DNA of 64,000 nt from contig NC_017249.1 of the NCBI RefSeq assembly GCF_000284375.1, forward strand, positions 5,248,001 through 5,312,000, read 5' to 3'. Numbering within the stretch: the first letter of the stretch is position 1; the number at the start of each line of letters is the position of its first letter. Under the pieces are notes generated by a model that worked only from the letters and a program-made list of their open reading frames with translations, did no database searches and was not told where the DNA came from. Below are positions 3,673 to 21,580 of this stretch, one piece after another. Position numbers and translations under genes: made by a program. This stretch comes from Bradyrhizobium japonicum USDA 6 (lineage in GTDB: Bacteria > Pseudomonadota > Alphaproteobacteria > Rhizobiales > Xanthobacteraceae).

Positions 3673-3687
3673 CTGGCGGAAGGGGTG
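3673..3687 (+). repeat. Left attachment core (att)
   Basis: CTGGCGGAAGGGGTG, identical to 21566-21580. It corresponds to the CCA, discriminator base and acceptor-stem 3' end of tRNA-Ser read on the minus strand. It lies 143 bp before the integrase start, as expected for an att site next to int. Confidence 0.75.
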
Positions 3688-3767
3688 TCCGCCAAAGCAG
3701 TGTTTTTGCTGTCCATGGCGACAACCGCAAATCTCAAGAACCCTTGTTTTCCTAGCCTTTCCGCTTA

Positions 3768-3799
3768 GGTTGCCAACACGGTCATCCGTGCTGGCAACC
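3768..3799. repeat. Inverted repeat upstream of integrase
   Basis: Two 14-base arms (GGTTGCCAACACGG and CCGTGCTGGCAACC) separated by TCAT, pairing at 13 of 14 positions. It sits between the att core and the integrase start. It could be an integrase-promoter operator, a terminator against read-through from the host side, or a structural part of attP. There is no T-run after it. Confidence 0.5.
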
Positions 3800-3806
3800 A
3801 CCCACA

Positions 3807-3825
3807 TTAGGAAAGAGATTAGGAA
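3807..3825 (+). repeat. Probable integrase arm-type repeat, left copy
   Basis: TTAGGAAAGAGATTAGGAA contains two TTAGGAA units. A 17/19 match on the same strand lies at 21492-21510 near the right att core. In the excised circle the two would flank the joined core, as arm-type sites do. The second TTAGGAA also serves as ribosome site for the integrase ATG at 3831. Confidence 0.5.
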
Positions 3826-3830
3826 CGGCC

Positions 3831-5000
3831 ATGGCGCGAAATCGGCTCACCACCACGCAATGCAATGCGCGCCGCAAGGCCGGAAAGCTGGCGGATGGCG
3901 ACGGCCTGTACCTTCAAACCAGCCCGAACGGTAACAAGTCGTTCGTGTTCGTTTTCATCCGCAGTGGTCGCCGCCGCGAGATGGGGCTGGGGCCGTTCGG
4001 CACGGGCACAGGGCAGGTTTCTCTCGCTGCTGCGCGTGACAAGGCCGACGAGGTTCGGGCAATCCTCGGGCGCGGTGGCGATCCGTTTACAGAGTTATCG
4101 TCGCGCCGCGCGACCAGCCGGAGCTTCGGCGCGTATGCCGACGAATGGGTTGCGGGGATGGAGGAGGGCTGGCGCAATGAGAAGCATCGCGCGCAGTGGA
4201 AATCGACGTTAGGAACGACCTATTGCGCGACCCTTCGCAAGCGGCCCATCGGCGAAGTCACAACCGACGATGTGATCAAGGTGCTGAAGCCTATCTGGCG
4301 CACCAAGGCTGAAACGGCCCGCCGCATCCGTGGCCGGATTGAACGGGTTCTAGACGCCGCTAGGGCGGCCGGTGAGCGCTCCGGTGAAAACCCCGCCCGA
4401 TGGCGCGGGCACCTGTCAGAGCTACTGTCCAAGCCCGAGAAGTTGCAGCGCGGCCATCACAAGGCCATGCCGCACACGGACGTGCCCGCGTTCATGACGC
4501 GGTTGCGGGCGATGAACGGGATTGCCGCGCTCTCCGTCGAATTCACGATTCTGACTGCTGCCAGGTCGGGGGAATCCCGTGGGGCAACGTGGTCCGAGAT
4601 TAAGGACGATCTATGGGTAGTGCCTCCCGAGCGGATGAAGGGCGGGCGCGAGCATAGGGTACCGCTCGTACCGAGGGCGCTAGAGATCTTGGAGCAGATG
4701 AAGAAACTGCGGACCTCAAACATCATCTTCCCTGGCTTCCGCGATGACAGGCCGCTATCGGATATGTCCCTGTCGGCGGTGCTGCGGCGGCTGAAGGTGG
4801 ATGCGACGGTGCACGGCTTCCGATCCAGTTTCCGCGATTGGGCGGGAGACGCCACCGACTTTCCGAGAGAACTGGCGGAGGCGGCCCTGGCGCATCTGGT
4901 CGGCGATGAGACGGAACGCGCCTATCGGCGGGGCGACGCCCTCAAGCGGAGGCGGGAGCTCATGGAGGCTTGGGCGGAATATCTCGGGCGGCAAAAATAA
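3831..5000 (+). CDS. int: P4-type tyrosine recombinase (integrase)
   Basis: 389 residues, the normal length for P4-like integrases. The N-terminal DUF4102/arm-binding domain is visible (KLADGDGLYLQ near residue 17, GLGPFG near 54). A SAM-like core-binding domain follows (residues 95-190). The catalytic domain shows Arg in TAARSGESRGATW, the H-x-x-R box VHGFRSSFRDWAGD, a later His in AALAHLVGDETERAYRRGD, and the nucleophile Tyr in that same segment (ERAYRR). The enzyme should cut and rejoin the tRNA-Ser att core. AGGA ends six bases before the ATG. It lies beside the left core, not beside the intact tRNA, the less common orientation for tRNA-directed elements. Confidence 0.95.
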   Translation: MARNRLTTTQCNARRKAGKLADGDGLYLQTSPNGNKSFVFVFIRSGRRREMGLGPFGTGTGQVSLAAARDKADEVRAILGRGGDPFTELSSRRATSRSFGAYADEWVAGMEEGWRNEKHRAQWKSTLGTTYCATLRKRPIGEVTTDDVIKVLKPIWRTKAETARRIRGRIERVLDAARAAGERSGENPARWRGHLSELLSKPEKLQRGHHKAMPHTDVPAFMTRLRAMNGIAALSVEFTILTAARSGESRGATWSEIKDDLWVVPPERMKGGREHRVPLVPRALEILEQMKKLRTSNIIFPGFRDDRPLSDMSLSAVLRRLKVDATVHGFRSSFRDWAGDATDFPRELAEAALAHLVGDETERAYRRGDALKRRRELMEAWAEYLGRQK

Positions 5001-5024
5001 TTTCACGAGATGCTACGGTTTGAG

Positions 5025-5051
5025 TTGACGTTTTGGGCAAAATGGCATTTT
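5025..5051 (+). promoter_or_regulatory. Possible promoter with palindromic operator upstream of alpA
   Basis: A TTGACG hexamer (5025-5030) is followed at 5039-5051 by the perfect palindrome AAAATGGCATTTT, which would overlap the spacer and -10 area. A regulator bound there could shut off rightward transcription. No clear -10 hexamer is visible, so this is tentative. Confidence 0.3.
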
Positions 5052-5171
5052 CTGGTTGATGCCTAAGCCGCGTGCGCCTTGCACCTTGTAGCGGCAACCC
5101 GGACTGGCCCCTTCGCCGGCGGGCATCGGTTGATTGGCTGACAACAGCCTCATACCACAAAACCACACACC

Positions 5172-5414
5172 ATGCACACTCCAAATCCGCCCGCCGGCGA
5201 GCCTATGCTCGTCAGCATGAAAACTGCGTGCACGCTCACATCATTGAGCCGCACGATGATCAATCGCTACCGCGCGGAGGGCCGCTTTCCTGCGGCCGTC
5301 CCGCTCGGGGACAAACGTATCGCCTTCGTTAAAGCGGAGGTCAGTGAATGGATCGCCTCGCGCATCGCTGCGCGTGCGGCGAACGATAACACCAGTAGGG
5401 CGGTGGCGGCGTGA
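5172..5414 (+). CDS. AlpA-family transcriptional regulator / excisionase-like
   Basis: 80 residues with a MerR-like winged helix-turn-helix: LTSLSRTMINRYRAEGRFPAAVPLGDKRIAFVKAEVSEWI, the standard AlpA pattern (sharp turn, then R..G.FP..V.LG...F....V..WI). AlpA proteins activate integrase transcription in P4-like elements and act as master activators in Gram-negative phage satellites. The start is uncertain: ATG 5172 gives 80 residues, while ATG 5205 or 5217 would still keep the domain. It is followed by an overlapping gene at 5411. Position just after int fits the satellite plan. Confidence 0.8.
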   Translation: MHTPNPPAGEPMLVSMKTACTLTSLSRTMINRYRAEGRFPAAVPLGDKRIAFVKAEVSEWIASRIAARAANDNTSRAVAA

Positions 5415-5677
5415 TGGTGGCCAGGCAGTATGAAGAGGTCGCTGTGCCCCTGTCGTGGTTTCTTCGTAATCCCGAGTTTCGACTTGGGTTCGCAGACGCT
5501 CGATCCCGCCGGCCGCCGCGTTTTGATCTGTTTGCCACCAATGCATACGAAGTTGGTCGGCTCTTCGCCATCGTAGCGCCGCCCGATATGACGCCGCACC
5601 ATCGTACTGCTTCGCGCGAATTGCGGTGGGCATTTCTCAATGGTGACATTCCAGAGATGTTTCCCCATGAAGAATAA
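5411..5677 (+). CDS. Hypothetical protein (88 aa)
   Basis: Starts inside the last codons of the AlpA-like gene (GTGATGG overlap) and ends 11 bases into the DUF3102-like gene, so it is embedded in a coupled array. The sequence contains VPLSWFLRNPEFRLGFADARSRRPPRFD and an aromatic-rich second half. No domain is recognised. The phrase P-x-FRLGFADARSG resembles proteins of unknown function in alphaproteobacterial mobile elements. Coding is supported mainly by the tight packing and absence of other frames. Confidence 0.6.
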   Translation: MMVARQYEEVAVPLSWFLRNPEFRLGFADARSRRPPRFDLFATNAYEVGRLFAIVAPPDMTPHHRTASRELRWAFLNGDIPEMFPHEE

Positions 5678-6326
5678 TCTGGATTCAATCGTCGCAAAAA
5701 TCCGTGAGCGGCAAGGTTCGACCACTCTCGCAATCGTCGAAATCGGACAGCTACTCAGCGCTGCAGCAGACTCGCTACCGCATGGCGAGTTCATGCCCTG
5801 GATTGAGCGTGAATTTGATTTTTCGTACCGCACTGCAAAGCGATATCGAGACGTCGCGGAAATGGTGTCAAATTTGCCAGTCTGGCAAATTTGGGCCGGC
5901 CAACTGTCGAAGGCGGCACTGTACGCGATGCTGGACCAGCCGAACAATGTGCGAGCCGCGGTTGTCGAGACCACTAAAACGATGTTCGTTTCTGCGTTTG
6001 AAGTTGCGCGGATCGCAGAACGGTTGCGTGTTGAGGCGGGAACCCAGCCGCCCATTGCCGATGAAGCGGCGGAGAAGGCAGGCCCGGCTGTGGATGGACC
6101 ACTGGACGCCCAACGAACCGCAGCCTCTATCATTCGATCGATATTCAAACTCGCGACATCGGGCGTAGCGCCAAGCAATCTCGTCGGCGCGATCGAAGAG
6201 GGGGATCTAAATTTCGCAATTGAATTTCTGCGCGAAATAAAATCAGCGCGAGAAGAGAAACGTTCATCGATTCAAGCTGCGGCGGATAGGGCTGAGCGAC
6301 GATCTGTGGAACGATCTTTGCATTAA
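5667..6326 (+). CDS. DUF3102-like protein
   Basis: 219 residues from ATG 5667. The N-terminal half shows the DUF3102 pattern: AIVEIGQLLSAAADSLPHGEFMPWIEREFDFSYRTAKRYRDVAE, i.e. a helix, L.HG.F.PW.E.EF, then a helix-turn-helix-like segment. The C-terminal half is charged and helical. Proteins of this family occur in phages and plasmids and probably bind DNA; none is well characterised. The gene holds a perfect inverted repeat at 5869-5893. An in-frame ATG at 5640 exists, but it lies deeper in the upstream gene. Confidence 0.75.
   Translation: MKNNLDSIVAKIRERQGSTTLAIVEIGQLLSAAADSLPHGEFMPWIEREFDFSYRTAKRYRDVAEMVSNLPVWQIWAGQLSKAALYAMLDQPNNVRAAVVETTKTMFVSAFEVARIAERLRVEAGTQPPIADEAAEKAGPAVDGPLDAQRTAASIIRSIFKLATSGVAPSNLVGAIEEGDLNFAIEFLREIKSAREEKRSSIQAAADRAERRSVERSLH
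5869..5893. repeat. Perfect inverted repeat inside the DUF3102-like gene
   Basis: CAAATTTGCCA, three bases GTC, then TGGCAAATTTG: 11-bp perfect arms within codons for SNLPVWQIW. It is AT-rich compared with its surroundings. It could be a protein-binding site (parS- or operator-like) or an RNA hairpin; the sequence alone does not decide. Confidence 0.5.
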
Positions 6327-6485
6327 ACGCGCCCATCCGATTGTCGCCAAATCCCGGGCCCAATTCTTCTGCGGTGGCGATTGCACACTTCGCCTGTCCG
6401 ACCACCAAATATCTGCGGCTGGCCTTTAGCGACCCGCCCAAAAACTCGCACTAGCAATCAGTAACTTCAACTTCGGAGGTGGGTG

Positions 6486-6680
6486 ATGCAGGTTCAGATG
6501 AAATCTAGCGGCACGGCGAAATCCAAGGTGCCGGACGGCTGGATCGACGACGGCGCGAGAGCGATTGCGCGTCGCCAGGAGAAAGAGACCGACGCAATGC
6601 TGGAGCAGTTCGGCGAAGCGGGAGCGAAAGTTTACAATCTTGCCGCCTATCGTGTGGCGCGCATCGAGGGGTGGTTCTAG
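6486..6680 (+). CDS. Hypothetical protein (64 aa)
   Basis: A strong GGAGGTG ribosome site lies just before ATG 6486. The protein is polar and helical (GWIDDGARAIARRQEKETDAMLEQFGEAGAKVYNLAAYRVARIEGWF). No domain is recognised. It ends one base before the GTG start of the RepA-like ATPase, so the two are almost surely cotranscribed and coupled. A role as accessory replication factor is only a guess from position. Confidence 0.65.
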   Translation: MQVQMKSSGTAKSKVPDGWIDDGARAIARRQEKETDAMLEQFGEAGAKVYNLAAYRVARIEGWF

Positions 6681-6681
6681 G

Positions 6682-7815
6682 GTGAGCGCTAAACCGAAGA
6701 CCAATAATGGCGAGCAGACAGGTGGCCACGCCAACGATAACGACCCTGATAAGGCAGCCAAGTTCAAGAAGGACTTCACATTCACGCGCTACTGCGAGCT
6801 GGGCCAGACGACGAGGGCCAAGGCGTTCGTAATCGATGGCGTCATGGCTGCCGGCGAGTCATCGTACACTGTGGCAAAGCCGGACAGCGGCAAATCCGTC
6901 ATCAAGCTTGACATGGACTTCCATATCGCGGCCGGCCTGGATTGGCACGGCTATCGCGTGACGAAGGGCCTCGCTGTCAACTTCGCCTTTGAGAGGTACG
7001 ACCTACAACTTAGGCGCGGCATGGCGTTGCGCCAATATTATTCCGATGTTGAGCCGAACATCCCGCTGGTGATTGTTGGCGGGAAGTTTGATCTGCATGG
7101 CAACACGCTTTCCGTCAGACGCATGGTCGACCTCATCAACTATCTGCAGGACGACTATCAGACCGTGCTGCGAAGCGCGACGCTCGACACGCTCACGAAA
7201 TCCTTCGGCCGCGGGAAGCAGAACGTTGCCGAGGACATGAAAGCCTATTTCGATAGTGTTGCGTATCTACTCGAAAAGTTTCCGACAACTCACTGCACGA
7301 TTGTTCATCACGAAGGGCATGACACCGGCCGGGCTAAGGGCGCCATTGACCTCGACGGCCTGGTCGATGTCAGCCACAGGGTAGTTCGGAAGGGTGAACT
7401 CTTCCGGCTTGAGTGCGACGGCGCCAATGACGGTGGCGCGTCAGGAACATTACTCACTTACGGCATGAAATCGGTCGAAGTGACGGACGCTGATGGCAAT
7501 AAGTTCGCAGCGCCTATCGTGTTCAAGGCGGCTGATACGGAGAAGTTCGCTGCCTCGCTTAGCGAGAAAGCCACCGAGACCGTGAAGGCCAAGACCAAGA
7601 CCGAATTAATGGACATTCTGACCGAGCTATCAAATGGCGGAAATCCTGTCGGTGGCGGTGTGTGGCAGTCCAAATACCACGAGCGATATCCAGACCTGAA
7701 TGAGAACACGGTACAGTCGAGGTTCAAGCGAGCCGCCAAGGCGCTTGAGGAGGACGGCAGCGTCCAATCGTCTGGAGTCCCCAAGGTCTATGTTCCGGTG
7801 CAGGTGCAAGCTTAG
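6682..7815 (+). CDS. RepA-like AAA ATPase / helicase
   Basis: 377 residues from GTG 6682. The fold resembles the RepA-type hexameric helicases found in RSF1010-like plasmids and integrated elements (AAA_25): a Walker A variant AKPDSGKS near residues 64-72, a Walker B region SATLDTLTKSFGRG near 170, then THCTIVHHEGHDTGRAKGAIDLDGLVD, the family's sensor region (HH.G.D..RG..G...L.GAVD). The usual first Gly of the P-loop is replaced by Ala. The C-terminal 100 residues look like a small winged-helix tail. The motif cluster and primase gene follow directly, making a replication module. Confidence 0.85.
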   Translation: MSAKPKTNNGEQTGGHANDNDPDKAAKFKKDFTFTRYCELGQTTRAKAFVIDGVMAAGESSYTVAKPDSGKSVIKLDMDFHIAAGLDWHGYRVTKGLAVNFAFERYDLQLRRGMALRQYYSDVEPNIPLVIVGGKFDLHGNTLSVRRMVDLINYLQDDYQTVLRSATLDTLTKSFGRGKQNVAEDMKAYFDSVAYLLEKFPTTHCTIVHHEGHDTGRAKGAIDLDGLVDVSHRVVRKGELFRLECDGANDGGASGTLLTYGMKSVEVTDADGNKFAAPIVFKAADTEKFAASLSEKATETVKAKTKTELMDILTELSNGGNPVGGGVWQSKYHERYPDLNENTVQSRFKRAAKALEEDGSVQSSGVPKVYVPVQVQA

Positions 7816-7919
7816 GTGCATGTTTTTTTGCACCCTGCACCTTGCACCTCAGCGACCATTCTTACGCGGGGTGCAAGGTGCAGCATTCAGCCCCCTTTAG
7901 GGGGCGATGCACCTGCACC
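7797..7919. repeat. GGTGCA/TGCACC iteron-like cluster (candidate replication origin)
   Basis: Ten copies of GGTGCA or its complement TGCACC occur in 123 bp: 7797, 7803, 7815 (plus sense); 7829, 7836, 7843 (complement); 7870, 7877 (plus); 7908, 7914 (complement). Within groups most copies are 6-7 bp apart. Segment 7835-7850 can pair with 7868-7883 (15 of 16), and 7877-7883 can instead pair with 7913-7919; a GCCCCC-TTTA-GGGGGC hairpin lies between at 7890-7905. It starts in the last codons of the RepA-like gene and ends before the primase gene. Iterons of an origin, or a switchable leader, are both possible. Confidence 0.65.
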
Positions 7920-7966
7920 CGCGCGTGGTTTGAAATTATAGAATTAGAAAGTGAATCCATCCGCCA

Positions 7967-8803
7967 ATGATCGACCTAGCACTCTCCCTAGCCACGGCAG
8001 GCACGCCCGTCTTTCCGTGTCGGCCCGAGAACAAGCGGCCGTACACTTCGAATGGCTTTAAATCCGCGACCGTCTTCCCGCACGTGCTCCGCAGGTGGTG
8101 GTCGGACTGGCCCGATGCCCTTGTCGGCATGCCAACCGGCGAGCGCACCAACGTCTGGGTGCTGGACATGGACTCCTATAAGGGCGCGACCGAGGCCGAC
8201 CTGTTGCACGACCTGCCGCCAACGCGCACAGTCAGGACGCGGAGCGGCGGCAGGCACTTCTATTTCCACCATGCTGGCCTGGGCAACTCACCGGGCAGGT
8301 TGCCGGCGGCCTGGGATGTTCGTGGCCAGGGTGGGTTTGTCCTCGTTCCAGGCAATCCGGGTTACACGTTGGAGCGCGACATGGCGCCCGCCGATGCGCC
8401 TGAATGGCTGCTGGCGCTTATCCGACCGCGTCCATATGTGCCGCGGCCGGGCCAACCGTACCAGCCGCAAACGCACGACGCGTACGTTGCCGGCGCGGTG
8501 TCGCAGGAGCTAGACCTGCTGTCGCGGTGCCCGGCAGGCAGCAGAGGGTATCAGCTCAATACCAGTGCCTTCCGGCTCGGCACGCTGGTTGGCGCTGGTG
8601 CACTAGATCGCAGTGAGGCTGAAGCAGGCTTGTGGGATGCTGCGCACGGATGTGGGCTGGCAGCGGTCGACGGCGAGCGTGCCTGCCGCAACGCTATTCG
8701 GCGCGGCTTGGACGCGGGCAGTAAGCAACCGCGGACGCTGCCCGAGCGGGACAACACGCCGTTAGTCGACGTGACGAAGCTGCTGCGGAAGCGGAGGGCA
8801 TAA
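7967..8803 (+). CDS. Bifunctional DNA primase/polymerase (Prim-Pol) domain protein
   Basis: 278 residues. The N-terminal Prim-Pol domain is recognisable: ALSLATAGTPVFPCRPENKRP (residues 5-25), RWWSDWPDALVGMPTG, the metal-binding D-x-D in VWVLDMDSYKG (around residue 65), then RTRSGGRHFYFHH (around 90) and GGFVLVPG. Such archaeo-eukaryotic type primases prime and extend DNA on plasmids and phages. The C-terminal third is short and lacks a helicase domain, which instead is the separate RepA-like ATPase upstream. The start has a weak ribosome site, so expression may depend on the structured leader before it. Confidence 0.9.
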   Translation: MIDLALSLATAGTPVFPCRPENKRPYTSNGFKSATVFPHVLRRWWSDWPDALVGMPTGERTNVWVLDMDSYKGATEADLLHDLPPTRTVRTRSGGRHFYFHHAGLGNSPGRLPAAWDVRGQGGFVLVPGNPGYTLERDMAPADAPEWLLALIRPRPYVPRPGQPYQPQTHDAYVAGAVSQELDLLSRCPAGSRGYQLNTSAFRLGTLVGAGALDRSEAEAGLWDAAHGCGLAAVDGERACRNAIRRGLDAGSKQPRTLPERDNTPLVDVTKLLRKRRA

Positions 8804-9056: not shown

Positions 9057-10022
9057 ATGAGCACCACGTCGAGGACACCATCAATGCAGCACGATTACCG
9101 CGCAGCCCTATCTTCCTGGCAGCCGCCAGCCAACGACAACGCGCCGCTCACCGCTGACAGCTTCGCCAGCCTTACGGATCGGCGCGCCTATGTCCAGCGC
9201 TCGCAGCGCAAACCCGAGCCCGTTCTCAACCTACCGCAGCTGGAGCGCCTGGGCCGTGCGGCGCCCGACGTCGTGCCGCTGTGGAAGTTTTGGCGCGATC
9301 TTCAGTGCGCGCCCGCTGCTGACGTCTTTGCGGTGCCGGAAATCATCGTCGACGAGGGCGAGGAGCCCGCGAACACGGGTTTTTCCACGGCCGAGCAAGA
9401 TTTGGAGTGCCGCCCGACCGTCGACGAACTGCAACGGGCCTGGGAGTCCGCGCCAGCCAGACGGGTGAGTGTCCACTGTACGGTTCGCAACGGCCAGCGT
9501 AGCGACGTGCTACGGGTGGTCGATCCCGTGGTTGTGCGAAGCGGTGACACCGCCCAGATCGGTTCGCTAGAGTTCCGTCGCGGCCGCCTGGTGCGCTATG
9601 GCCGCACCGCCCGCGGTGTACCGCTGAAGCCAGTCGAGCAATTGCGCGCCGCCAAGGGCAGTCGCAAGCCTCAGCCGCCGCGCGATTTCCGCTTCCTGGT
9701 GCAGACCAATGCTCCAGTCGCATGGAAGGTGGATTTTCTGGCAGGCGAATCCGCTTCGACGGGCCGGAGCGGGTCGCCGTTGGAATGTTTCGCCGCGGCC
9801 GAGCAATCGCGGAAAGCAGAAGAGCAGGGGTTGAGGCAGGCACTGGGATCGCATGCCGAGATTTTGGACCTTGCCATCGGCGACAGCACGGCCCGTGAGA
9901 TCGGCGAGAGCCGTGGCCATCACGGGAAGCACGCTGAGCGTCGCGGGATTTTCCTGATCAACGAGGCGTTTGCAGCACTGCGCGCTCTTGTCGGTGTAAA
10001 TATTTTGCCGAAGGCGGTGTAA
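9057..10022 (+). CDS. Hypothetical protein (321 aa)
   Basis: Long open frame with GC-rich codon use like its neighbours. The first 150 residues are low in hydrophobic content and contain QPPANDNAPL, a linker typical of alphaproteobacterial proteins. The middle has beta-like segments (VSVHCTVRNGQRSDVLRVVDPVVV). The end ALRALVGVNILPKAV is helical. No domain is recognised. ATG 9084 has a GAGG ribosome site and may be the true start. It ends the early gene block: a strong terminator follows 77 bp downstream. Confidence 0.6.
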   Translation: MSTTSRTPSMQHDYRAALSSWQPPANDNAPLTADSFASLTDRRAYVQRSQRKPEPVLNLPQLERLGRAAPDVVPLWKFWRDLQCAPAADVFAVPEIIVDEGEEPANTGFSTAEQDLECRPTVDELQRAWESAPARRVSVHCTVRNGQRSDVLRVVDPVVVRSGDTAQIGSLEFRRGRLVRYGRTARGVPLKPVEQLRAAKGSRKPQPPRDFRFLVQTNAPVAWKVDFLAGESASTGRSGSPLECFAAAEQSRKAEEQGLRQALGSHAEILDLAIGDSTAREIGESRGHHGKHAERRGIFLINEAFAALRALVGVNILPKAV

Positions 10023-10098
10023 GCGGTCCCTAAACCTGCCCGCCAATCCGTATCTAAGTGTAGGGCGCGCTGCTGAACGGCTCGACGTGCACACCTTT

Positions 10099-10129: not shown

Positions 10130-10203
10130 CCGGCGACCGCGGATGTAACGGCGTCGGCCATTTCACTATTCAATCGCAATTTCAAACACAGGAGACTGGC
10201 CGA

Positions 10204-10734
10204 GTGGCCACTTTGAATCACGTGCTCGACGCGATCGAGCGCCAGATCGGCTTTCCGCGCTCGCGAAGCAATGGAATTGCTCGCAGGCTGCAGGAATCCA
10301 ACCTTCTGCCCGTTGGCGCGCCTGGAGTTGCGCCAGAGTTGAATGAGGACAACGTCCTTGACCTCGTTGTTGCGCTCGCGTCGGACACAGAGCTGCACAA
10401 CGCGGTGGGCGCGGTCCGCGCGTACCACGCGATGACTCCCGGAGGTGCCATCCTGGATGGGGCCCCGCAGTCGATTCCCAACGCGCCGATCGCTGTTGCG
10501 CTTTTGGTCGAGGACGCACGCGCTGGCGTTCCGGCGGCTCGCAAATCCCGGATCGAAGTGTCTTGCAACGCGCGCGCAGTAGCGATCCACAAGCCGAACG
10601 GTGAAGTCAGTCGCTTCGTTGAAGCCGGTGCAGATCCTGTGCATTGGCCATCCCGAGGCCATCACAAATCGATCGCGCTCAACGTCGCCGCGATTGCTGA
10701 TGCGCTCGATGACATTTTTGGAAAGGTGAATTGA
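10204..10734 (+). CDS. Hypothetical phage-type protein (176 aa)
   Basis: The GTG at 10204 follows an AGGAG site and is preferred over the longer frame, which would run through the terminator. The protein begins with a helical, possibly DNA-binding segment (LNHVLDAIERQIGFPRSRSNGIARRLQESNLLP) and has an alpha/beta C-terminal half. I recall similar proteins near packaging genes of alphaproteobacterial prophages, but no function is known. Its TGA abuts the ATG of the next gene, indicating coupling. Confidence 0.65.
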   Translation: MATLNHVLDAIERQIGFPRSRSNGIARRLQESNLLPVGAPGVAPELNEDNVLDLVVALASDTELHNAVGAVRAYHAMTPGGAILDGAPQSIPNAPIAVALLVEDARAGVPAARKSRIEVSCNARAVAIHKPNGEVSRFVEAGADPVHWPSRGHHKSIALNVAAIADALDDIFGKVN

Positions 10735-11316
10735 ATGGCCGCCCTAAAGAAGAAAGATACTGAAGAATTCCGCGTCCCGAGCCTGGCCGAATCCAGCCAG
10801 GAATATAACGGCCTGATCGTAAAACAGCTTGGGCTGCATGAGCGATACCTCGCGCTCAACGCTGAGAGCAACAAGCTGCGTGGCGAAATTGAAAAAGCTA
10901 GGGCCGCAGGTGGACAGCCGCTTTCGCCTAGCGTGGCTGCATTGCTCGGCGATGCTCCTGACAGCTTGACGCTGCTGTCGCAGCGACAGCGTGAAGTCGC
11001 CACCGAGATGAATAACATCGAAACGGCCCAGGAAATTCTGCGCCGCCGTATCGAGGAGGCGCGTAACGGGGCGTCCAAAGCCGTCTGCGACAGTGTTCGC
11101 GGAGAATATCAGCGTCGCCTCGGTGCGGTGTGTGAGGCTGCGCGCGCCCTCGAAGCCGCACGCGAGGACCATGACTCTCTGCTTGACGATATTGAGCGCG
11201 AGGATGTGCGCGTTGATTATTTGCGACCAGTCCGTCCGTTCTTTCTCGGCGACCGGCGAGAAGGAAGGGTTTTCCATTATTTGAAGGAAGTCGCGGAGGC
11301 GGGACACAATGCTTGA
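10735..11316 (+). CDS. Coiled-coil hypothetical protein (193 aa)
   Basis: A charged, mostly helical protein with predicted coiled-coil stretches at about residues 25-60 and 80-165 (heptad-like Leu spacing, many Glu/Arg). It starts immediately after the upstream stop and overlaps the next gene by 8 bp. No known domain. By position it belongs to the packaging/head block, and a scaffold- or adaptor-like role is conceivable but not shown. Confidence 0.65.
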   Translation: MAALKKKDTEEFRVPSLAESSQEYNGLIVKQLGLHERYLALNAESNKLRGEIEKARAAGGQPLSPSVAALLGDAPDSLTLLSQRQREVATEMNNIETAQEILRRRIEEARNGASKAVCDSVRGEYQRRLGAVCEAARALEAAREDHDSLLDDIEREDVRVDYLRPVRPFFLGDRREGRVFHYLKEVAEAGHNA

Positions 11317-11491
11317 GAAAGCTGACGAGCGTCGCAGCAAAAAGAAGCGGAAAATTTCTATCCGGGGGACATACTTCAAAACGGATGACACGGATCCAAT
11401 CGCGATTGCGCGAGCCCTGAGAAAAGAATCAAAGCTCGGTAAGCGTGAAGCACGCTTGGAGCAGGCGGAGGCGAAGGTTGGCCGACGCTAA
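11309..11491 (+). CDS. Small basic protein (60 aa)
   Basis: Starts within the stop region of the coiled-coil gene and overlaps the protease start by 14 bp. It contains RRSKKKRKISIRG near the start and a helical Glu/Arg-rich end (LEQAEAKVGRR). Basic composition suggests nucleic-acid contact; no family recognised. Support comes from overlaps on both sides. Confidence 0.5.
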   Translation: MLEKADERRSKKKRKISIRGTYFKTDDTDPIAIARALRKESKLGKREARLEQAEAKVGRR

Positions 11492-11999
11492 AACTATTTG
11501 GGGCTATGCCGTTCTTTGGGGCTCCAGCACAAATATTGCGAACGAGTTTCTTGAACAGTTCGCAAAGGGATCGCTAACGCGCAGCATTAGAGAGGACGAT
11601 ATCCGGATGTTACTTGACCATGATCCAGGTCGAGTAGTCGGGCGCACGGCCTCGGGGAGCCTCCGTTTGCGAGAAGATGCTCTCGGACTTCGATACGAAG
11701 TCGACGTGAATCTTGATACGCCAGATGGACAAACTCTCGCTGGAACGATCGGCAGGCGAGATGTGTCTGGGATTTCTCCCTCGTTTTACGTAAAAACAGA
11801 AAATTGGCTGGATGGCGGGTCTGGCTTGCCTCTACGGATTATCACTGAAGCTCGGCTTAGGGAGATCAGTGCCGTGGCTTGGCCTGCGTATCCGCAGACA
11901 ACTGCGGTGATGCGGTCTATTGCCAACACCAACAGCGTAGCTGCCCAACGCCGCATAGCCGCAAGGCGTGAAGCCATGCGTGTGCGGGGAATGCTGTGA
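11478..11999 (+). CDS. HK97-family prohead (head maturation) protease
   Basis: 173 residues from TTG 11478, chosen because GGAGG lies six bases upstream and the family fold begins at once (TIWGYAVLWG). Landmarks of the U35/HK97 protease family: FAKGSLTRSI, the catalytic His in MLLDHDPGRVVGRT, and the catalytic Ser in RRDVSGISPSFYV, then LREISAVAWPAYPQT. It would cleave scaffold and capsid proteins during head assembly. No capsid or portal gene is present nearby, so its substrate must come from elsewhere or have been lost. It overlaps the HNH gene by a GTGA junction. Confidence 0.85.
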   Translation: MADAKTIWGYAVLWGSSTNIANEFLEQFAKGSLTRSIREDDIRMLLDHDPGRVVGRTASGSLRLREDALGLRYEVDVNLDTPDGQTLAGTIGRRDVSGISPSFYVKTENWLDGGSGLPLRIITEARLREISAVAWPAYPQTTAVMRSIANTNSVAAQRRIAARREAMRVRGML

Positions 12000-12274: not shown

Positions 12275-12360
12275 GGCGGGTCAGATCCCTTCACCGACGC
12301 GTCTATGTTAGCGGCGGCCCCACTTTCGCACGCATCTGCAATTCGGACCCCAGGGGCAAA

Positions 12361-13145: not shown

Positions 13146-13322
13146 ATGACTCAACTCCACAACACTCCATCAGACCCGACCGAACCGCCGACGAATCCAG
13201 TTGAAGGTTTTGTGTTCAAGCCAGCCGGCAGCGACGTTTGGCAGGTCTGGCAAAAGATCAACGGTCGATATGTGCGCATCGATGATGCAGCTGCACGCCC
13301 TGATGAGGAAGTAAAACATTGA
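13146..13322 (+). CDS. Small hypothetical protein before the tail-fibre gene (58 aa)
   Basis: ATG 13146 to TGA 13320-13322. The protein contains a proline/threonine-rich start (TPSDPTEPPTNPVEGFVFKP) and VWQVWQKINGRYVRID. It overlaps the TTG start of the tail-fibre gene by four bases (TTGA), a sign of coupling. Similar small partners precede tail genes in phages; no function can be assigned. Confidence 0.6.
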   Translation: MTQLHNTPSDPTEPPTNPVEGFVFKPAGSDVWQVWQKINGRYVRIDDAAARPDEEVKH

Positions 13323-14908
13323 CCTCACCACTTAATTCATATTCCACCGGCACCGTTGCAGTTGCAGCGGACGGAACGACCGTTACCGGCACGAGCACCC
13401 TTTGGTCCAGCGCCGGCAACGTTAAGCCCGGCGATCTTTTCCAGAGCGGTCACTTTTGCGTTCCGATTACGGACGTCACCGACGACACGCACTTGGTCAT
13501 CACACCTTGGCCTGGCTCGACGCTGAGCGGTGCGTCGTATGTCGTTTGGAAAGTGTCGCAACAGCGCATCGTCGGCGAGACCTATGCCCGCGACGTCGAC
13601 AAAATGGTCGGCGCGCTCAACACATCGGGCTATTTCGTCTTCGTCGACATCGACGAGACTGTGCCGGATCCGTCGCTCGGCGATGACGGGCAATATGCGT
13701 TTCAGCCGACATCCGGCAAGACGTGGGCGAAGGTCGCTGGCGTCTGGTCTTATCTCGGAATTTATAAGGGGCTCCAACTCAAAGGAGCATGGAGCGGCGC
13801 GACGGCTTATGCGGCCAACGACGTCGTGACGTTGAGTGGGTCGAGCTACGTTTGCGTTCTCGACCACACCAATCACACGCCGCCGAACGCGACCTATTGG
13901 CAATTGCTGGCTGCGAAGGGCGACACGGGTGCGACGCCTCTATTGCCGGTTGCGGCGTGGGTTACGGCGACCGCGTATGTTGCTGGACCGCCTGCCAGCT
14001 ACGTGACCAATGGTGGCTCGTCATACATGTGCCTGACGTCCCATACGTCGGGAACGTTTGCGACCGATCTCGCTGCAGGCAAATGGGGGCTCGTTTCGCA
14101 GGCGGGCACCAACGCACCCACCTACGGCGGCACTTCGACGACATCGCTCGCTATCGGCACAGGGTCAAAAGTGTTCACCACGCAGGCTGGTTTGGCTTAC
14201 ACCAACGGGGCTCGCGTGCGGGCATCCTCCGGCGCTAATTGGCTTGAAGGTGTCGCGACATACAGCGGAACGACTCTCACGATTACGTCTGACAAGACAA
14301 ACGGCACCGGCACGTTCACGAGTTGGACGTTTAATGTCGCGGGCCAGCCTGGGGCTGGCGACCTGTCGAGCGCCAACAATCTGTCGGATGTGGCGAACAT
14401 CGCGACGGCGCGTGCCAATCTCGGTGCTGGTACAGTCAACAGTGTTACCGCCGGCACAGGACTGTCGGGCGGCACGATCACGAGCAGCGGCACGATTGCT
14501 CTGGCGCTAAATAATGCAACACTTCAAGCAGCGCCATCAAACCCCGCCGGGGTTGCAAGTTTTGTGATGCTCGGACTAGGATCGACTTGTCACATAACGC
14601 CGATATACAGCACGCGCATCCTGGTGACGATTAGTGGCCACGCCTCCAACGGTGGTGCGGGAACGTTTACAAACTTGACGATCCGATATGGCACAGGCAC
14701 TGCACCAGCTAACGGTGCGTCCCCGACCGGCACAACCGCGACAACACCCATGTCTGTGGCATCCAGCACCAACCTTACACCCTTCAGCCTGACTACCATC
14801 ATCACAGGGCTGACGGCAGGCGTCGCATATTGGTTGGATTTGTCGGCCTCCCCATTATCGGGAACGTCGTCGTTGGGTGGAATCAATTGTACAGCCGTTG
14901 AATTGTAG
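13319..14908 (+). CDS. Phage tail-fibre-like protein with carbohydrate-binding modules
   Basis: 529 residues from TTG 13319. The N-terminal region (TGTVAVAADGTTVTGTSTLWSS) resembles phage tail proteins. Two chitin/carbohydrate-binding-like modules follow: AWSGATAYAANDVVTLSGSSYVCV...YWQLLA (near residues 155-200) and AWVTATAYVAGPPASYVTNGGSSYMCL...W (near 220-260). Then come beta-rich Ser/Thr/Gly repeats, a tail-fibre motif LSSANNLSDVANIATARANLGAG (near 350-370), and a beta domain at the end. It may recognise host surface glycans. No other tail genes are in the element, so it may modify helper particles or be a relic. Confidence 0.75.
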   Translation: MTSPLNSYSTGTVAVAADGTTVTGTSTLWSSAGNVKPGDLFQSGHFCVPITDVTDDTHLVITPWPGSTLSGASYVVWKVSQQRIVGETYARDVDKMVGALNTSGYFVFVDIDETVPDPSLGDDGQYAFQPTSGKTWAKVAGVWSYLGIYKGLQLKGAWSGATAYAANDVVTLSGSSYVCVLDHTNHTPPNATYWQLLAAKGDTGATPLLPVAAWVTATAYVAGPPASYVTNGGSSYMCLTSHTSGTFATDLAAGKWGLVSQAGTNAPTYGGTSTTSLAIGTGSKVFTTQAGLAYTNGARVRASSGANWLEGVATYSGTTLTITSDKTNGTGTFTSWTFNVAGQPGAGDLSSANNLSDVANIATARANLGAGTVNSVTAGTGLSGGTITSSGTIALALNNATLQAAPSNPAGVASFVMLGLGSTCHITPIYSTRILVTISGHASNGGAGTFTNLTIRYGTGTAPANGASPTGTTATTPMSVASSTNLTPFSLTTIITGLTAGVAYWLDLSASPLSGTSSLGGINCTAVEL

Positions 14909-15450: not shown

Positions 15451-15654
15451 GTGGCAATTGGGACAGTGAAGTGGTTCAACCCGACAAAGGGGTACGGGTT
15501 CATTCAACCTGACAACGGCGGCAATGACGTCTTTGTCCACATCTCCGCGGTTGAGAAGGCTGGTTTTACTTCGCTCGCAGAGGGCGCAAAAGTCAGCTTC
15601 GACATCGTGAAAAATCGCGGAAAAGACTCGGCGGAAAATCTACGAATCGGGTGA
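15451..15654 (+). CDS. Cold-shock domain protein (CspA family)
   Basis: 67 residues from GTG 15451, preceded by GGAG. It is a single cold-shock domain with both nucleic-acid motifs: RNP1 in KGYGFIQPD and RNP2 in DVFVHISAV, after [11 protein letters not shown]. It binds single-stranded RNA or DNA. Cold-shock genes are common host genes and also appear in phages. Here it lies inside the element after the tail-fibre gene, so it may act as an element-encoded RNA chaperone. Confidence 0.9.
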
Positions 15655-17995: not shown

Positions 17996-18684
17996 GTGGC
18001 TGTACGCGAGTTTGAAATAAGTGCTTACTCGGTCGTTTTGCTCGGCAACTTCAATCCGGTTATTTTCACGCCTAATTGGTTTGAGAAGTGGGGCTGCTCA
18101 CGGAAGATGAAGCTGCCAATGCCGAGGTCAGCGTCATACACCCCGACATAACTCGTTTCGCTGCTGGCGGCCTCACAGTCCAAGTCGAATTGAATCGGTT
18201 TTCAGCTTCAGGCACGCAGTCCGCGATTAAAATCAAGGACTTTGTTCTCAAGACGTTCCGTGATTACTTAAGCCATACGCCCATCCGCAGCATCGGGATC
18301 AATCGGGAAGTGCATTATAGGTTGCCCAATGTTGGCGCGAGAGTGAAGCTTGGTCGCTCTCTGGCGCCCCTTGCACCTTGGGGTGAATTTGGCCGTGAGA
18401 TGGAGGAGAAGCCCGGCAAGGAGGTAGGCGGTTTGCTTTCGATAACAATGCACAGGCAAAAGGAGGGGACCGAAATTAAAGGGCATGTGCAAGCCACGGT
18501 TCAACCTTCTGCGATCATCCCGCGTAATGTCGGCGTGTTTTTCCAGATTAACGATCACTCTGAGGCGCTCGACGAGAGCAATTCATCCGAGGTCATCCTA
18601 GACTTGCTGGACTCTTCGTTCGAAGAGTCCATCAAGCAAAGCGAGAAGATTATCGATCAGGTTTTGATTGGGATTGAAGCATAA
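17996..18684 (+). pseudogene. TIGR04255-like protein, first gene of a three-gene unit, frameshifted
   Basis: GTG 17996 with AGGGG eight bases upstream opens VAVREFEISAYSVVLLGNFNPVIFTPNWFEKWG; the frame then goes wrong at about 18090-18094. The continuation is in the next frame from GTG 18088: GLLTEDEAANAEVSVIHPDITRF, HTPIRSIGINREVHYRL, VFFQINDHSEA. Together they make about 230 residues in the style of TIGR04255 proteins (HTPI.ALGIN, INDH motifs). One missing base near GTGGGGCTG explains the break, so it may be a recent mutation or an error. A 198-residue product from GTG 18088 remains possible. Its TAA overlaps the next ATG. Confidence 0.65.
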
Positions 18685-19265
18685 TGCCATCCACAGCAAC
18701 AGCTACTTATGATTCGGATGAAGCGTATATTGATCAGTCGACGATGTTCAAAGAAGGTACGGTCCAGCGGCATCGATCGGCGTTACATAGTCGGCTTATA
18801 CAACACGCGGCCAAAGAGAGCTTGAGCGCTTTCACAGATCGACGGCGGCGCACGATTGCTTCTGAACTCGATGAGCCCGACGATTCGTCGGCAGTGGTGA
18901 TCGCGCCCGATAAGCAGCCTAAATCAAGGGTCGCCAGTTTCACCGCGTTGCAGGAGTGGGACGGATACGTTTTGTCTGTTGGTGCGAAAACATTCGTTGC
19001 GCGCATCACGGACATTACCGAGGATGGTCCTCCGGACGACGGCGAGGTGGAATTGCCTTTGCTCGAACTATCAGAGTCCGTGGCCCAGAAGCTCAAAGAG
19101 GGTGATCTTTTTCGGTGGTCAATTGGATACGAGCGAACTTTGGACGGACAAAAGACCAAGGTTTCACGGATTGTAATGCGCTTGCTGCCCCGCTGGCAAA
19201 AATCTTCGTTAGAGCAAGCTGATCGTCGAGCGTCAGAGTTAGTTGAGCGCATCAACTGGCGATGA
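18684..19265 (+). CDS. Unknown protein, middle gene of the three-gene unit (193 aa)
   Basis: Starts at ATG 18684, which shares a base with the previous stop (TAATG), and ends with ATGA overlapping the next gene. The first 70 residues are polar and probably disordered or helical; from about residue 88 a beta-rich part (LQEWDGYVLSVGAKTFVARITDI...GEVELPLLELSESVAQKLKEGDLFRWSIGY) looks like a small barrel, perhaps OB-like. No family recognised. Tight coupling on both sides means it acts with the TIGR04255-like and metallo-hydrolase partners. Confidence 0.75.
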   Translation: MPSTATATYDSDEAYIDQSTMFKEGTVQRHRSALHSRLIQHAAKESLSAFTDRRRRTIASELDEPDDSSAVVIAPDKQPKSRVASFTALQEWDGYVLSVGAKTFVARITDITEDGPPDDGEVELPLLELSESVAQKLKEGDLFRWSIGYERTLDGQKTKVSRIVMRLLPRWQKSSLEQADRRASELVERINWR

Positions 19266-20362
19266 CGGCGCCCGCTGAAGATCAGATAGAGGTCTCTCTC
19301 TTCGGACCCGGATACGGGGAATGCTGCCTTGTTCACATTGGAGGCGGCAAGTGGATTGTTATCGACTCTTGCGTTGAACCTCGGAGTCAAAAGCCGGCTG
19401 CGCTTGAGTATCTTGAACGGATAGGTGTCGATGCTGCCACGTCGGTAGAAATGATCGTGGCGACTCATTGGCATGACGATCATGTGCGTGGGATTTCAAC
19501 GCTGCTAAGGGCATGCCCCAAAGCGTCGTTTGTGTTGTCAAATGCTATGTCATCAAAGGAATTCATTTCGATGGCATTGGCTCGCAACACAATTAAGTCG
19601 ACAAAAGTTTCAACTGGCTCTGGCGAAATCTCCGCTGTCTTTGATCAGCTAGGTTCTTCTCGTAGGACAGCTACACGAGCGATCGCGGATCGGACGCTTA
19701 TGACCGTTCGTAACTCTTCTCTAAGACACGGTTACGACTGCGTTGTGACATCATTGTCGCCTTCCGACAGGCAGACACAGACATTTATGGATGATCTTGC
19801 GTTGCTTATGCCTGATCCAAACAGCTCGGAGAGGCGTTGTGTATCGAGAGGTCCAAATCACCTTGCTGTCGCACTTTGGGTCTCCTTGGGCCCCGTAGAC
19901 ATTCTGCTTGGAGCCGATCTGGAAGAGACCCAAGACCCCGATACTGGCTGGTCAGTTATCGTAAACTCGACCAATCGGCCAAAGGGACAAGCTACCGTTT
20001 TTAAAATTCCGCATCATGGTTCGCAGAACGGACACTGCGTTGGCGTGTGGCAAAGCATGCTGGCGCCCCATCCGATTTCTATTTTAACTCCCTACAATCG
20101 CGGTGATGTCGGCCTCCCCACCGAAGATGACGTGAAGCGAATTGTGCCTCTATCAAGTTCCGCATTTTCTACTGCCGAAAATCGGAAGTTGCGGACTCAT
20201 TCGAAACTCGATCCCGTCGCGTTTCGAATGTTAAAGCAAAACGGTATTCAGATTACGAACGCCGAACCAAGAATGGGGCACATCTGTCTTCGCAATGGTG
20301 GGAGCGCAGATTTTAGCACTTGGACGCCGTCATTGAGCGGCACTGCGCATCGGCTTTCTTGA
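19262..20362 (+). CDS. ComEC/Rec2-like MBL-fold metallo-hydrolase
   Basis: 366 residues with a stand-alone metallo-beta-lactamase domain of the ComEC type: GPGYGECCLVHIGGGKWIVIDS (residues 15-40), the metal site THWHDDHVRG (about 69-78), VALWVSLGPVDILLGADLEE (about 205-225) and FKIPHHGSQNGH (about 247-258). No membrane segments are present, so it is a cytosolic hydrolase or nuclease. Such enzymes occur in several defence-type gene sets. It closes the overlapping three-gene unit near the right end of the element, the usual place for cargo in phage satellites. Confidence 0.85.
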   Translation: MTAPAEDQIEVSLFGPGYGECCLVHIGGGKWIVIDSCVEPRSQKPAALEYLERIGVDAATSVEMIVATHWHDDHVRGISTLLRACPKASFVLSNAMSSKEFISMALARNTIKSTKVSTGSGEISAVFDQLGSSRRTATRAIADRTLMTVRNSSLRHGYDCVVTSLSPSDRQTQTFMDDLALLMPDPNSSERRCVSRGPNHLAVALWVSLGPVDILLGADLEETQDPDTGWSVIVNSTNRPKGQATVFKIPHHGSQNGHCVGVWQSMLAPHPISILTPYNRGDVGLPTEDDVKRIVPLSSSAFSTAENRKLRTHSKLDPVAFRMLKQNGIQITNAEPRMGHICLRNGGSADFSTWTPSLSGTAHRLS

Positions 20363-20468
20363 AGATGTGTCTCCCGCGCTCATCGCGGAGCGCAGGGAGG
20401 GGGCGTCAACGCTGGGCCAATCTCACGGCCCGCCCAACCAGGGAGGCGGGGCGGAGCACTGCCGGTGC

Positions 20469-20834
20469 TTAGTTTTTAGCCCTGGCTGTCAGCTCATTCT
20501 TGAGGGCTATTGCAGCCTGCGCGATTCGGTTTAATGGGTTTTGTGCGCAGTAGTTGTCCATCCAGGCGTAGTAGGCCACGCTTTGCGGTTTTGGAGCAAT
20601 AAATTCAACGTCGCTCCCCATGTTGAATCCAGACAGAAAGCCGTCCAGCCAAGCCTCTAGCTGAGCAGTGGCCGACTTGTCGCCGGTCACTCGATATTTC
20701 TGCCATTCGCCGCATGTCAGCATGCCGGCGCCATACGCTATTCTATTTCCATCAGCTGCCTGCGCCGAATGTGGTGACGCTAGGAGAACTGCTAGCAGGA
20801 CGAGCGCGGACTTCGCTCCTAACCTCTCGGGCAT
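20469..20834 (-). CDS. Secreted protein of unknown function (121 aa)
   Basis: A signal peptide (KSALVLLAVLLASPHSAQA) is followed by a mature domain with GMLTCGEWQKYR, WLDGFLSGFN and AWMDNYCAQNPLNRIAQAA. Two cysteines in these conserved-looking positions probably form a disulfide. The pattern recurs in short periplasmic proteins of alphaproteobacteria (Rap1a/HdeA-like in size), function unknown. It lies directly next to a ribbon-helix-helix gene on the same strand with no gap. Confidence 0.7.
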   Translation of the reverse strand: MPERLGAKSALVLLAVLLASPHSAQAADGNRIAYGAGMLTCGEWQKYRVTGDKSATAQLEAWLDGFLSGFNMGSDVEFIAPKPQSVAYYAWMDNYCAQNPLNRIAQAAIALKNELTARAKN

Positions 20835-21035
20835 CTATTTCACCTTCGACTTCAGCGCTTGCTCCACCAGCCTGCGGATAGCCTCTGGCCTGGTCATCAC
20901 GTCACCCTGTTTGGCGATCCACGCATCCAGTTTAGCAAGCGGATCATCGAGCAAGCGCACACCAACGAGCGTGCCCTTGCCGGTGGTCACCGGGCGACCG
21001 CGCCTTTTTGTGTTAACCCTAATTGACTTATCCAT
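20835..21035 (-). CDS. Ribbon-helix-helix protein (66 aa)
   Basis: Basic start (RVNTKRRGRPVTTGKG) then the ribbon-helix-helix pattern TLVGVRLLDDPLAKLDAWIAKQ...MTRPEAIRRLVEQALKSK, as in CopG/Arc-type repressors. Its stop abuts the start of the secreted-protein gene, so the two are one minus-strand transcript. It probably regulates the promoter region it shares with the divergent gene at 21123. Confidence 0.8.
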   Translation of the reverse strand: MDKSIRVNTKRRGRPVTTGKGTLVGVRLLDDPLAKLDAWIAKQGDVMTRPEAIRRLVEQALKSKVK

Positions 21036-21122
21036 TCTTTAGTGATAACACAAAATCAGGCCGGGCGAAAGCGCCAACTCTCGCACCGGCCCTAACCCCA
21101 GCGCGAAAGGACCTTCTGCGCC

Positions 21123-21398
21123 ATGGCTACCCACGAAACTACCACCATTTCCCGGCTGGTCTCTACACACCGCGACATTACGGAACTGGCGCGCGCACCG
21201 ATGCCCCTGGACGCCCTGCTTGATGTGGCCTCTGGAATCCAGAGGGAGGTTGTCGGCACGCCATCGGCTGATTGGGCTGAGTTCGGTGCGAAGGCCTGCC
21301 TCCTGATCAATGAGCTGACCACAGACCCGACCACCGGTTGGCTGGATGCGATCCGCGAAAGTCTGCGCGCCGACGTCGACCGGTTGGCCGCGATCTGA
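21123..21398 (+). CDS. Hypothetical protein (91 aa)
   Basis: Divergent from the ribbon-helix-helix gene. The protein is helical, with MATHETTTISRLVSTHRDITELARAPMPLDALLD at the start and AKACLLINELTTDPTTGWLDAIRESL later. No family recognised. A clear terminator follows 38 bp downstream, which supports expression. It is the last gene before the right attachment site. Confidence 0.6.
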   Translation: MATHETTTISRLVSTHRDITELARAPMPLDALLDVASGIQREVVGTPSADWAEFGAKACLLINELTTDPTTGWLDAIRESLRADVDRLAAI

Positions 21399-21436
21399 GA
21401 GAGTCGGTCGCGCTCTAATCGCGCGAGCCAAGCGCG

Positions 21437-21470
21437 AGCCCGCTCCAGCGCAAGTTGGGGCGGGCTTTCA
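21437..21470 (+). terminator. Probable terminator at right end of the element
   Basis: AGCCCGC (21437-21443) and GCGGGCT (21460-21466) form a 7-bp stem followed by a TTTC run. It follows the 91-residue gene and would stop rightward transcription before the att region and the tRNA. Confidence 0.6.
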
Positions 21471-21491
21471 CTGTTCTAGGCGCGGGGTTGT

Positions 21492-21510
21492 TTAGGAATT
21501 AGATTAGGAA
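21492..21510 (+). repeat. Probable integrase arm-type repeat, right copy
   Basis: TTAGGAATTAGATTAGGAA matches 17 of 19 bases with 3807-3825 in the same orientation and lies 55 bp from the right att core. See the left copy for the reading as arm-type sites. Confidence 0.5.
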
Positions 21511-21565
21511 TTGACTGTCGGATATTCATATTTCTCTAGTAATATCAATTAGATATATATAATTT

Positions 21566-21580
21566 CTGGCGGAAGGGGTG
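21566..21580 (+). repeat. Right attachment core within tRNA-Ser 3' end
   Basis: CTGGCGGAAGGGGTG, identical to 3673-3687. It covers the encoded CCA and the 3' acceptor strand, so integration keeps the tRNA intact. Confidence 0.75.

Follow-up and report, generated by a model that had tools for sequence, protein, structure and literature searches.

Phage satellites move accessory genes, for example those for defence or virulence, and the literature found on them mostly concerns enterobacteria, staphylococci and vibrios. Capsid-forming phage-inducible chromosomal islands (cf-PICIs) carry HK97-type morphogenesis genes, capsid, portal and large terminase (TerL), and P4-like satellites encode a single fused primase-helicase (alpha) protein. 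Here we analyzed a window of 64 kb (positions 5,248,001-5,312,000) from the single-contig, 9,207,384-bp genome of Bradyrhizobium japonicum USDA6T, which contains an island inserted at a tRNA-Ser gene. Judging from its anatomy and from comparison with related loci, we consider it likely (a probability of roughly 80%) that we are dealing with an integrated phage satellite, of the type known in Gram-negative bacteria as phage-inducible chromosomal islands (PICIs); no description of a PICI in Bradyrhizobium was found in the literature searched. In contrast to the cf-PICIs, none of capsid, portal and TerL was found among the 20 open reading frames (ORFs) of the island that were scanned, although a sibling locus (L120) has a capsid gene, and in contrast to the P4-like satellites, its Prim-Pol and AAA_25 domains lie in separate ORFs. 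By its predicted gene content, the island thus falls outside the definitions of both groups.

EcCICFT073, the prototype of the Gram-negative PICIs (PMC6092414), resembles the island in its int-alpA-rep order, its rightward gene direction, an iteron origin located 3' of the replication gene and an incomplete structural set. Gram-negative PICIs are further marked by attachment sites that prophages do not use, and by induction and packaging through a helper phage, with which they interfere. Only two island proteins, the integrase (E 5e-9) and AlpA (E 3e-6), showed homology to EcCICFT073, and comparison of the others gave nothing convincing. The PICI likeness proposed in the initial annotation of this DNA stands for the gene order and the proposed mechanism, but not for homology beyond the integrase and AlpA. 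The two elements also differ in that EcCICFT073 has one primase protein, whereas the island has an AAA_25 Rep and a separate primase-polymerase; in that a capsid protein and a decoration protein are encoded by EcCICFT073, whereas the island has an S78 protease, an HNH endonuclease, TerS and the protein o193; and in their hosts, E. coli and an alphaproteobacterium, respectively. A capsid homolog, possibly giving rise to small helper heads, is present in SaPIbov5 and in the Pasteurella element PmCI172 (PMC6092414); the capsid gene of L120 is a likeness to these elements, while the protease and coiled-coil protein of the island are a difference. The features of the island, in window coordinates, are as follows.

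3673..3687, plus strand: attL core (15 bp), exact repeat of 21566-21580
3831..5000, plus strand: tyrosine integrase, P4 type (PF13356, PF22022 at 1.1e-28, PF00589; EcCICFT073 int, E 5e-9)
5172..5414, plus strand: AlpA regulator/excisionase (PF05930, 3e-12; EcCICFT073 AlpA-like protein, E 3e-6)
5640..6326, plus strand: DUF3102 protein (PF11300, 1e-7)
6565..7815, plus strand: Rep initiator-like AAA_25 ATPase (PF13481, 3.8e-12)
7797..7919, no strand: putative origin with ten GGTGCA/TGCACC iterons and, after them, an AT-rich stretch (hexamer counts)
7967..8803, plus strand: primase-polymerase, Prim-Pol (PF09250, 1e-28)
9057..10022, plus strand: o321, recurrent in the family (tblastn to relatives, e.g., L073, 69-79%)
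10204..10734, plus strand: o215, putative winged-helix DNA-binding regulator (176 aa in homologs)
10735..11316, plus strand: o193, modelled as a long helical hairpin (pLDDT 85), candidate for a scaffold or a capsid-remodelling factor
11309..11491, plus strand: o60, small basic protein (recurs, e.g., 92% in L075)
11445..11999, plus strand: S78 prohead protease (PF04586, Peptidase_S78, 7.2e-38)
11996..12274, plus strand: HNH endonuclease (PF01844, 7.6e-8; phrog_2323, 1.5e-32)
12262..12726, plus strand: TerS, start possibly at 12361 (phrog_83, 2.8e-8; 46-47% to annotated TerS of Rhizobium phages; no Pfam match)
13319..14908, plus strand: tail-fibre-like protein with CBM5/12 (PF02839, phrog_5073, phrog_1980; recurs in relatives)
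15451..15654, plus strand: cold-shock protein (PF00313)
18088..20362, plus strand: three-gene cargo d1-d2-MBL, candidate defence module (PF00753, MBL)
20469-20834, minus strand: o121, small ORF near the right end (ORF list)
21566..21580, plus strand: attR core, equal to the tRNA-Ser 3' end, exact repeat of 3673-3687
21567..21656, minus strand: tRNA-Ser (TGA), integration target, its 3' end overlapping the attR core

The 15-bp repeat CTGGCGGAAGGGGTG occurs in two exact plus-strand copies in the 64 kb (3673-3687 and 21566-21580), and the second coincides with the 3' end of the minus-strand tRNA-Ser(TGA) gene, in agreement with the exact att cores initially proposed. In a chance control, a same-strand 15-mer recurred 1-25 kb away in 102 of 20,000 random windows (five start positions each); the island repeat also lies 143 bp from an integrase gene and at a tRNA 3' end. 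With both repeats counted, the island spans 5,251,673-5,269,580 on the genome, and its G + C content is 58.5%, with 60.7% in the left flank and 64.3% in the right flank. As DNA, the island is already known: Table 5 of PMC3927601 lists BJ6TGI09 at trnS-TGA (5,251,688-5,269,566; 17,879 bp; 58.4% G + C) with a 14-bp duplication and one integrase, and these coordinates agree with the ends found here. In the part of that paper available to us, this DNA is classed among the genomic islands associated with tRNA genes, bearing one integrase, and is not termed a phage satellite. A partial duplicate of the tRNA-Ser gene, 36 bp corresponding to its 5' half (97%), lies at 23009-23044, 1.35 kb from the intact gene, and a second partial tRNA-Ser copy was also seen in another locus (L195), approximately 3 kb from its tRNA-Ser.

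The island genes run rightward in the order integrase, AlpA, DUF3102, Rep, primase-polymerase, o321, o215, o193, o60, protease, HNH and TerS, followed by the tail-fibre-like gene, the cold-shock gene, a DUF6894 gene and the d1-d2-MBL trio; all listed genes from the integrase to MBL lie on the plus strand, and the small o121 lies on the minus strand. The 20 ORFs were scanned against Pfam and PHROGs, with small ORFs covered in part only. The integrase, AlpA, RepA-like ATPase, primase-polymerase, head protease, HNH and TerS assignments of the initial annotation were all recovered by the matches listed above, and its statement that TerL, portal, capsid and lysis genes are missing agrees with the 20 ORFs, none of which matched these families. 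The tail-fibre-like gene, the cold-shock gene and the d1-d2-MBL trio are additions of the present analysis.

The same gene set recurs in other genomes. We collected 26 loci with o215, comprising one of Mesorhizobium tianshanense (L031), 20 further genomic loci, the sibling L120, a remnant in the USDA6T genome (L137) and three IMG/VR contigs (L202-L204); among 195 genomes of the genus, o215 was present in 21. A block of o215, o193 and the S78 protease was found in 23 of the 26 loci (in one, L069, an insertion splits o215), and the exceptions are two fragments (L081 and L137) and L120. Six loci (L062-L067) share about 99.9% identity over 10.8-13.4 kb, and thus the number of independent loci is about 21. 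Nine loci with TerS or Rep relatives and no o215 match (L121-L125, L127-L130) stand outside the 26, and L126 of genome G113, with TerS, protease and capsid matches of 24-31%, was judged too distant to be counted in the family. In the sibling L120 (G158:C91:62001-82000), a capsid gene (PF05065, 1.9e-49) replaces the protease, and TerS (77%) and the fibre (50%) are conserved. L126 (G113:C42:49001-69000) holds integrase, primase, TerS, capsid and protease matches of 24-52% close together, and is possibly a capsid-forming satellite. L137 (G000:C1:4370001-4390000), the left part of the previously published island BJ6TGI08, appears to be a satellite remnant, with an integrase of the same profile, an AlpA-like gene, a primase-polymerase (77%) and fragments of o321 and o215.

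Seven further block-bearing loci have a tRNA gene nearby, and in five of them a tRNA-end repeat was found across an element of 10.5-19.7 kb:

L202: tRNA-Lys, 49-bp exact repeat, 14.8 kb, integrase at the repeat
G080: tRNA-Pro, 49-bp exact repeat, 16.5 kb, integrase at the repeat
G031: tRNA-Pro, 65-bp exact repeat, 10.5 kb, integrase at the repeat
G021 (L077): tRNA-Val, 47-bp exact repeat, 18.4 kb, no integrase detected
G144: tRNA-Arg, 18-bp exact repeat, 19.7 kb, integrase at the repeat

The other two (L069 and G093) showed no att repeat at the nearby tRNA. A search of relatives at other tRNA sites, which the initial annotation had suggested, returned the block with att repeats at five such genes. 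The 10.5-kb element of G031, which contains an integrase, an AlpA-like gene, a Rep-like gene (E 5e-10), o215, o193, o60, the protease and a TerS-like gene, is close to a minimal core.

The initial annotation had also named a full set of capsid, portal and large terminase genes between the same ends in close relatives as the mark of a decayed prophage. The TerL and portal probes were of the types found in Rhizobium phages and in island BJ6TGI10 of the same genome (HK97 and T4), so that other terminase types can escape them, and the capsid searches covered PF05065 and PF25209. With these probes, no such set was found: TerL and portal had no match in 24 o215 loci or in the remaining two (L081 and L137), and the capsid probe had one match in the 24 (L120) and none in the two. 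This comparison included six att-bounded block carriers, the window among them, in which no portal or large-terminase match lies between the ends. At the genome level, the capsid family PF05065 and the portal family PF04860 each occurred in 3 of 17 carrier genomes, in no case inside an o215 locus; PF25209 occurred in 3 of a partly different set of 17 genomes, and PF05065 was absent from the three IMG/VR records. TerS relatives were present in 19 of 195 genomes and the Rhizobium-phage TerL in 27 of 195, with no shared places. In Pfam scans of 120 ORFs of at least 250 aa from 17 loci (25 of 64 and 25 of 44 families listed), neither TerL nor portal was among the matches listed, beyond which weak matches could lie.

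The replication module supplies further evidence. Ten GGTGCA/TGCACC hexamers at 7797-7919 span the 3' end of rep and the gap before the primase-polymerase gene, and no 130-bp segment of the island contains more copies of any hexamer; the origin-like motif cluster reported initially is therefore substantiated. An AT-rich stretch lies on one side of the iterons only, without a second flanking iteron set. Rep homologs were found in 52 of 195 genomes of the genus, USDA6T included, and 30 of the 32 loci with a Rep relative (the window among them) gave a usable tblastn match. In 22 of these 30, the island included, the 300-bp stretch at the stop codon of rep contains six or more copies of one hexamer, which was the case for 4 of 737 control windows taken with half overlap from these loci. 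Of the eight loci without this feature, two (L009 and L026) show a comparable cluster at another position. In a second Rep lineage (L068 and L072), the clusters are weaker (about 5) and no better than some controls. The same kind of script found 11 copies of GGTAGA 3' of the primase gene in EcCICFT073, with a maximum of 5 in 68 controls. As some of the 30 rep loci may be prophages, the iteron origin supports replication, but not satellite status by itself. The iteron hexamer varies by lineage (CGGACA, CGTGAC, GGGACA, CGAACA, GGTGCA and others), and across the Rep lineages with different 6-bp iterons (L001-L032), Rep-origin specificity is perhaps predictable throughout the genus.

Several observations weigh against the satellite interpretation. 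An empty tRNA-Ser site with the window flanks joined was found in 0 of 11 loci fetched (one genome per species), where the tRNA-Ser is conserved but the flanks are rearranged. The origin anatomy is not specific to satellites, since it is shared by rep loci of mixed or unassigned element kinds, and a T4-type TerL is present elsewhere in the USDA6T genome, in BJ6TGI10. The sibling L120 carries a capsid gene, and a match to a second capsid family, PF25209, lies 0.9 kb left of its integrase and may fall inside or outside the element. Neck or tail-completion and tail-tube-like proteins are encoded in L202 and L204, and L203 has a neck protein. Tape-measure-like proteins occur in L202, L204, L068, L077, L079, L121 and, weakly, L078; two of these tape-measure carriers (L202 and L077 of G021) are att-bounded. 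Such genes may descend from a phage ancestor or may be working particle-shaping genes. In the IMG/VR contig L205, a weak TerS relative (34-36%) stands beside TerL and portal matches. Finally, the 44,091-bp IMG/VR record of L203 (also containing L209 and L210) has phage-like ORFs on the opposite strand, roughly 16 kb away from the block; one of these ORFs, missed by the probes, resembles another TerL type by eye. This record may represent a satellite and a phage side by side or one composite element, and at that distance and on the other strand, the TerL-like ORF leaves the odds of the satellite interpretation unchanged.

The neck, tube and tape-measure genes of relatives and the capsid gene of L120, together with the phage relatives of the protease, HNH, TerS and fibre, would suit a decayed prophage, that is, an HK97-type temperate phage at tRNA-Ser of which only debris and cargo remain after the loss of its TerL, portal, capsid, tail and lysis genes. 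We regard this explanation as unlikely. The same subset recurs with att repeats and diverged sequences (o193 39-63%) at different tRNA genes, and its order, protease-HNH-TerS, differs from the TerS-TerL-portal-protease-capsid order of the Rhizobium phages RHph_TM3_3_14B and RHph_Y3_1; independent decay would not be expected to leave one and the same subset, arranged unlike a phage, at several tRNA genes. In addition, o215 and o193 are conserved and had no match in 50,697 phage records. These two phages and 16-3 are the closest named phages (TerS 46-47%, protease 47%, Rep 34%) and plausibly represent the helper type; RHph_TM3_3_14B and RHph_Y3_1 differ from the island in possessing TerL, portal and capsid, and in having no o215 or o193 match. 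The island shows the following layout features of Gram-negative PICIs: its own integrase and att sites, AlpA next to int, an iteron origin 3' of rep, a rightward gene direction and, in its 20 ORFs, no full structural or lysis set. With regard to genes exclusive to the PICI family, o215 and o193 lack phage-record matches, while Rep, protease, HNH and TerS have phage relatives. The satellite interpretation, which the initial annotation had advanced, is thus supported by anatomy and comparison, and its PICI assignment by gene order and the mechanism proposed below.

We infer that the island would be mobilized by a helper phage and may remodel the helper's particles. Upon helper infection, AlpA or o215 would switch on the rightward operon, the integrase would excise the element, and Rep and the primase-polymerase would replicate it from the iteron origin. 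TerS, with HNH, would direct the helper TerL onto satellite DNA, the S78 protease and the coiled-coil protein o193 would change helper head assembly, and the fibre would perhaps be built onto helper tails. A resident HK97-type helper was considered and rejected, as PF05065, PF04860, PF25209 and PF03354 had no match in the USDA6T genome, a search that does not exclude other phage types. As no HK97-type capsid or portal family was found in this genome, the helper would probably be an incoming phage. The same negative result would fit a satellite that is no longer functional in USDA6T, an explanation that overlaps with the preferred one, and the partial copies in this genome (L062 and L137) show that such elements decay. 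Since the main reading frames of the island are open, with domain matches near full length, loss of function seems the less likely state, if a more serious possibility than prophage decay.

Relatives of o193 form 58 protein clusters, its own included, from Bradyrhizobium wherever an organism is named; the island's own cluster, at 90% clustering, is represented on 21 contigs. Identity of o193 across loci is 39-63% over the main segment. As a single-protein query, o193 found no relative in IMG/VR, whereas its alignment matched two IMG/VR contigs. Fold searches with o193 returned generic coiled coils only, and Foldseek with o215 gave no match at E <=0.001, with weak MerR-type rows; sequence searches for relatives of solved structure gave none for the protease at E 0.01 and no meaningful one for TerS at E 1. 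Two candidate relationships of o193 were rejected by profile comparison, namely that it is a capsid delta domain (probability 0.3% with the L120 capsid) and that it is akin to a coiled-coil-looking protein of L131 (0.6%). The recurring combination of a protease and a coiled-coil protein, with no capsid gene, is a new setting in which capsid remodelling could be sought.

We tentatively suggest, while holding it doubtful, that these elements form a satellite lineage of Bradyrhizobium and related rhizobia that shapes the whole helper virion with regulatory parts only, borrowing capsid, portal, motor and tail. The protease and coiled-coil scaffold might then determine head size, TerS the choice of cargo and the fibre the host range, an allocation that is equally speculative. 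It is likewise conceivable, at the same low level of confidence, that in sister elements the neck protein, tube-like protein and tape measure set tail length. If the satellite interpretation is true, part of the genomic islands in a genus of agricultural inoculants are phage satellites.

The right part of the island carries cargo. The d1-d2-MBL trio is probably defence cargo: PADLOC matched RTasMBL (1e-9) and LmuA (9e-9) at the superfamily level, and the trio recurs in the same order in genome G017 (L206 and L207) at 28-38% identity. Assignment to a named defence system was rejected, as the PADLOC matches are at the superfamily level only and the NCBIfam matches fall below cut-offs. At E <=1e-20, the MBL protein was found in 2 of 195 genomes of the genus, USDA6T included. 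Among the 26 o215 loci, 10 have a copy of the cold-shock gene (91-97%), and six of these 10 are near-identical to each other.

The MBL trio raises the question of whether the island could instead be an integrative island with a phage-derived anti-phage module, in which protease, TerS and o193 poison phage assembly and which is moved by conjugative islands or transduction. The near-identical block copies agree with this idea, since they sit in six genomes, including USDA6T and G187, and the USDA6T copy, at 9.15 Mb, falls within symbiosis island C (9,114-0-70 kb in PMC3927601) and can travel with the larger island. We consider it very improbable, as the island is equipped with an integrase, AlpA, a replication origin and TerS of its own, and no relaxase family was found among its 20 ORFs scanned with Pfam. 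In the fetched stretches of these six copies (L062-L067), no integrase or AAA Rep match was seen, and five contain a primase-like piece. Because a block copy lies inside symbiosis island DNA, phage piracy could be tested jointly with the spread of symbiosis traits.

Other islands with satellite-like gene sets were also observed. Capsid and portal probes had no match in BJ6TGI10 (L140; G000:C1:5379001-5396000, genes 958-11047), L131 (G177:C1, 1.01 Mb) or L132 (G012:C110). BJ6TGI10, a published neighbour of the present island, lies at tRNA-Asn with a 54-bp repeat and encodes an integrase, RusA, an AAA_25 Rep and a T4-type TerL, together with a possible fibre and a TerS-like protein (DUF5681, weak), and from this content it may be regarded as a second satellite-like island, with its own motor. 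L131 and L132 have HNH, TerL and a TerS, assigned by position, unlike that of the window, and L131 additionally contains a ClpP-type head protease and a fibre-like ORF; these two loci appear to represent other satellite-like gene sets.

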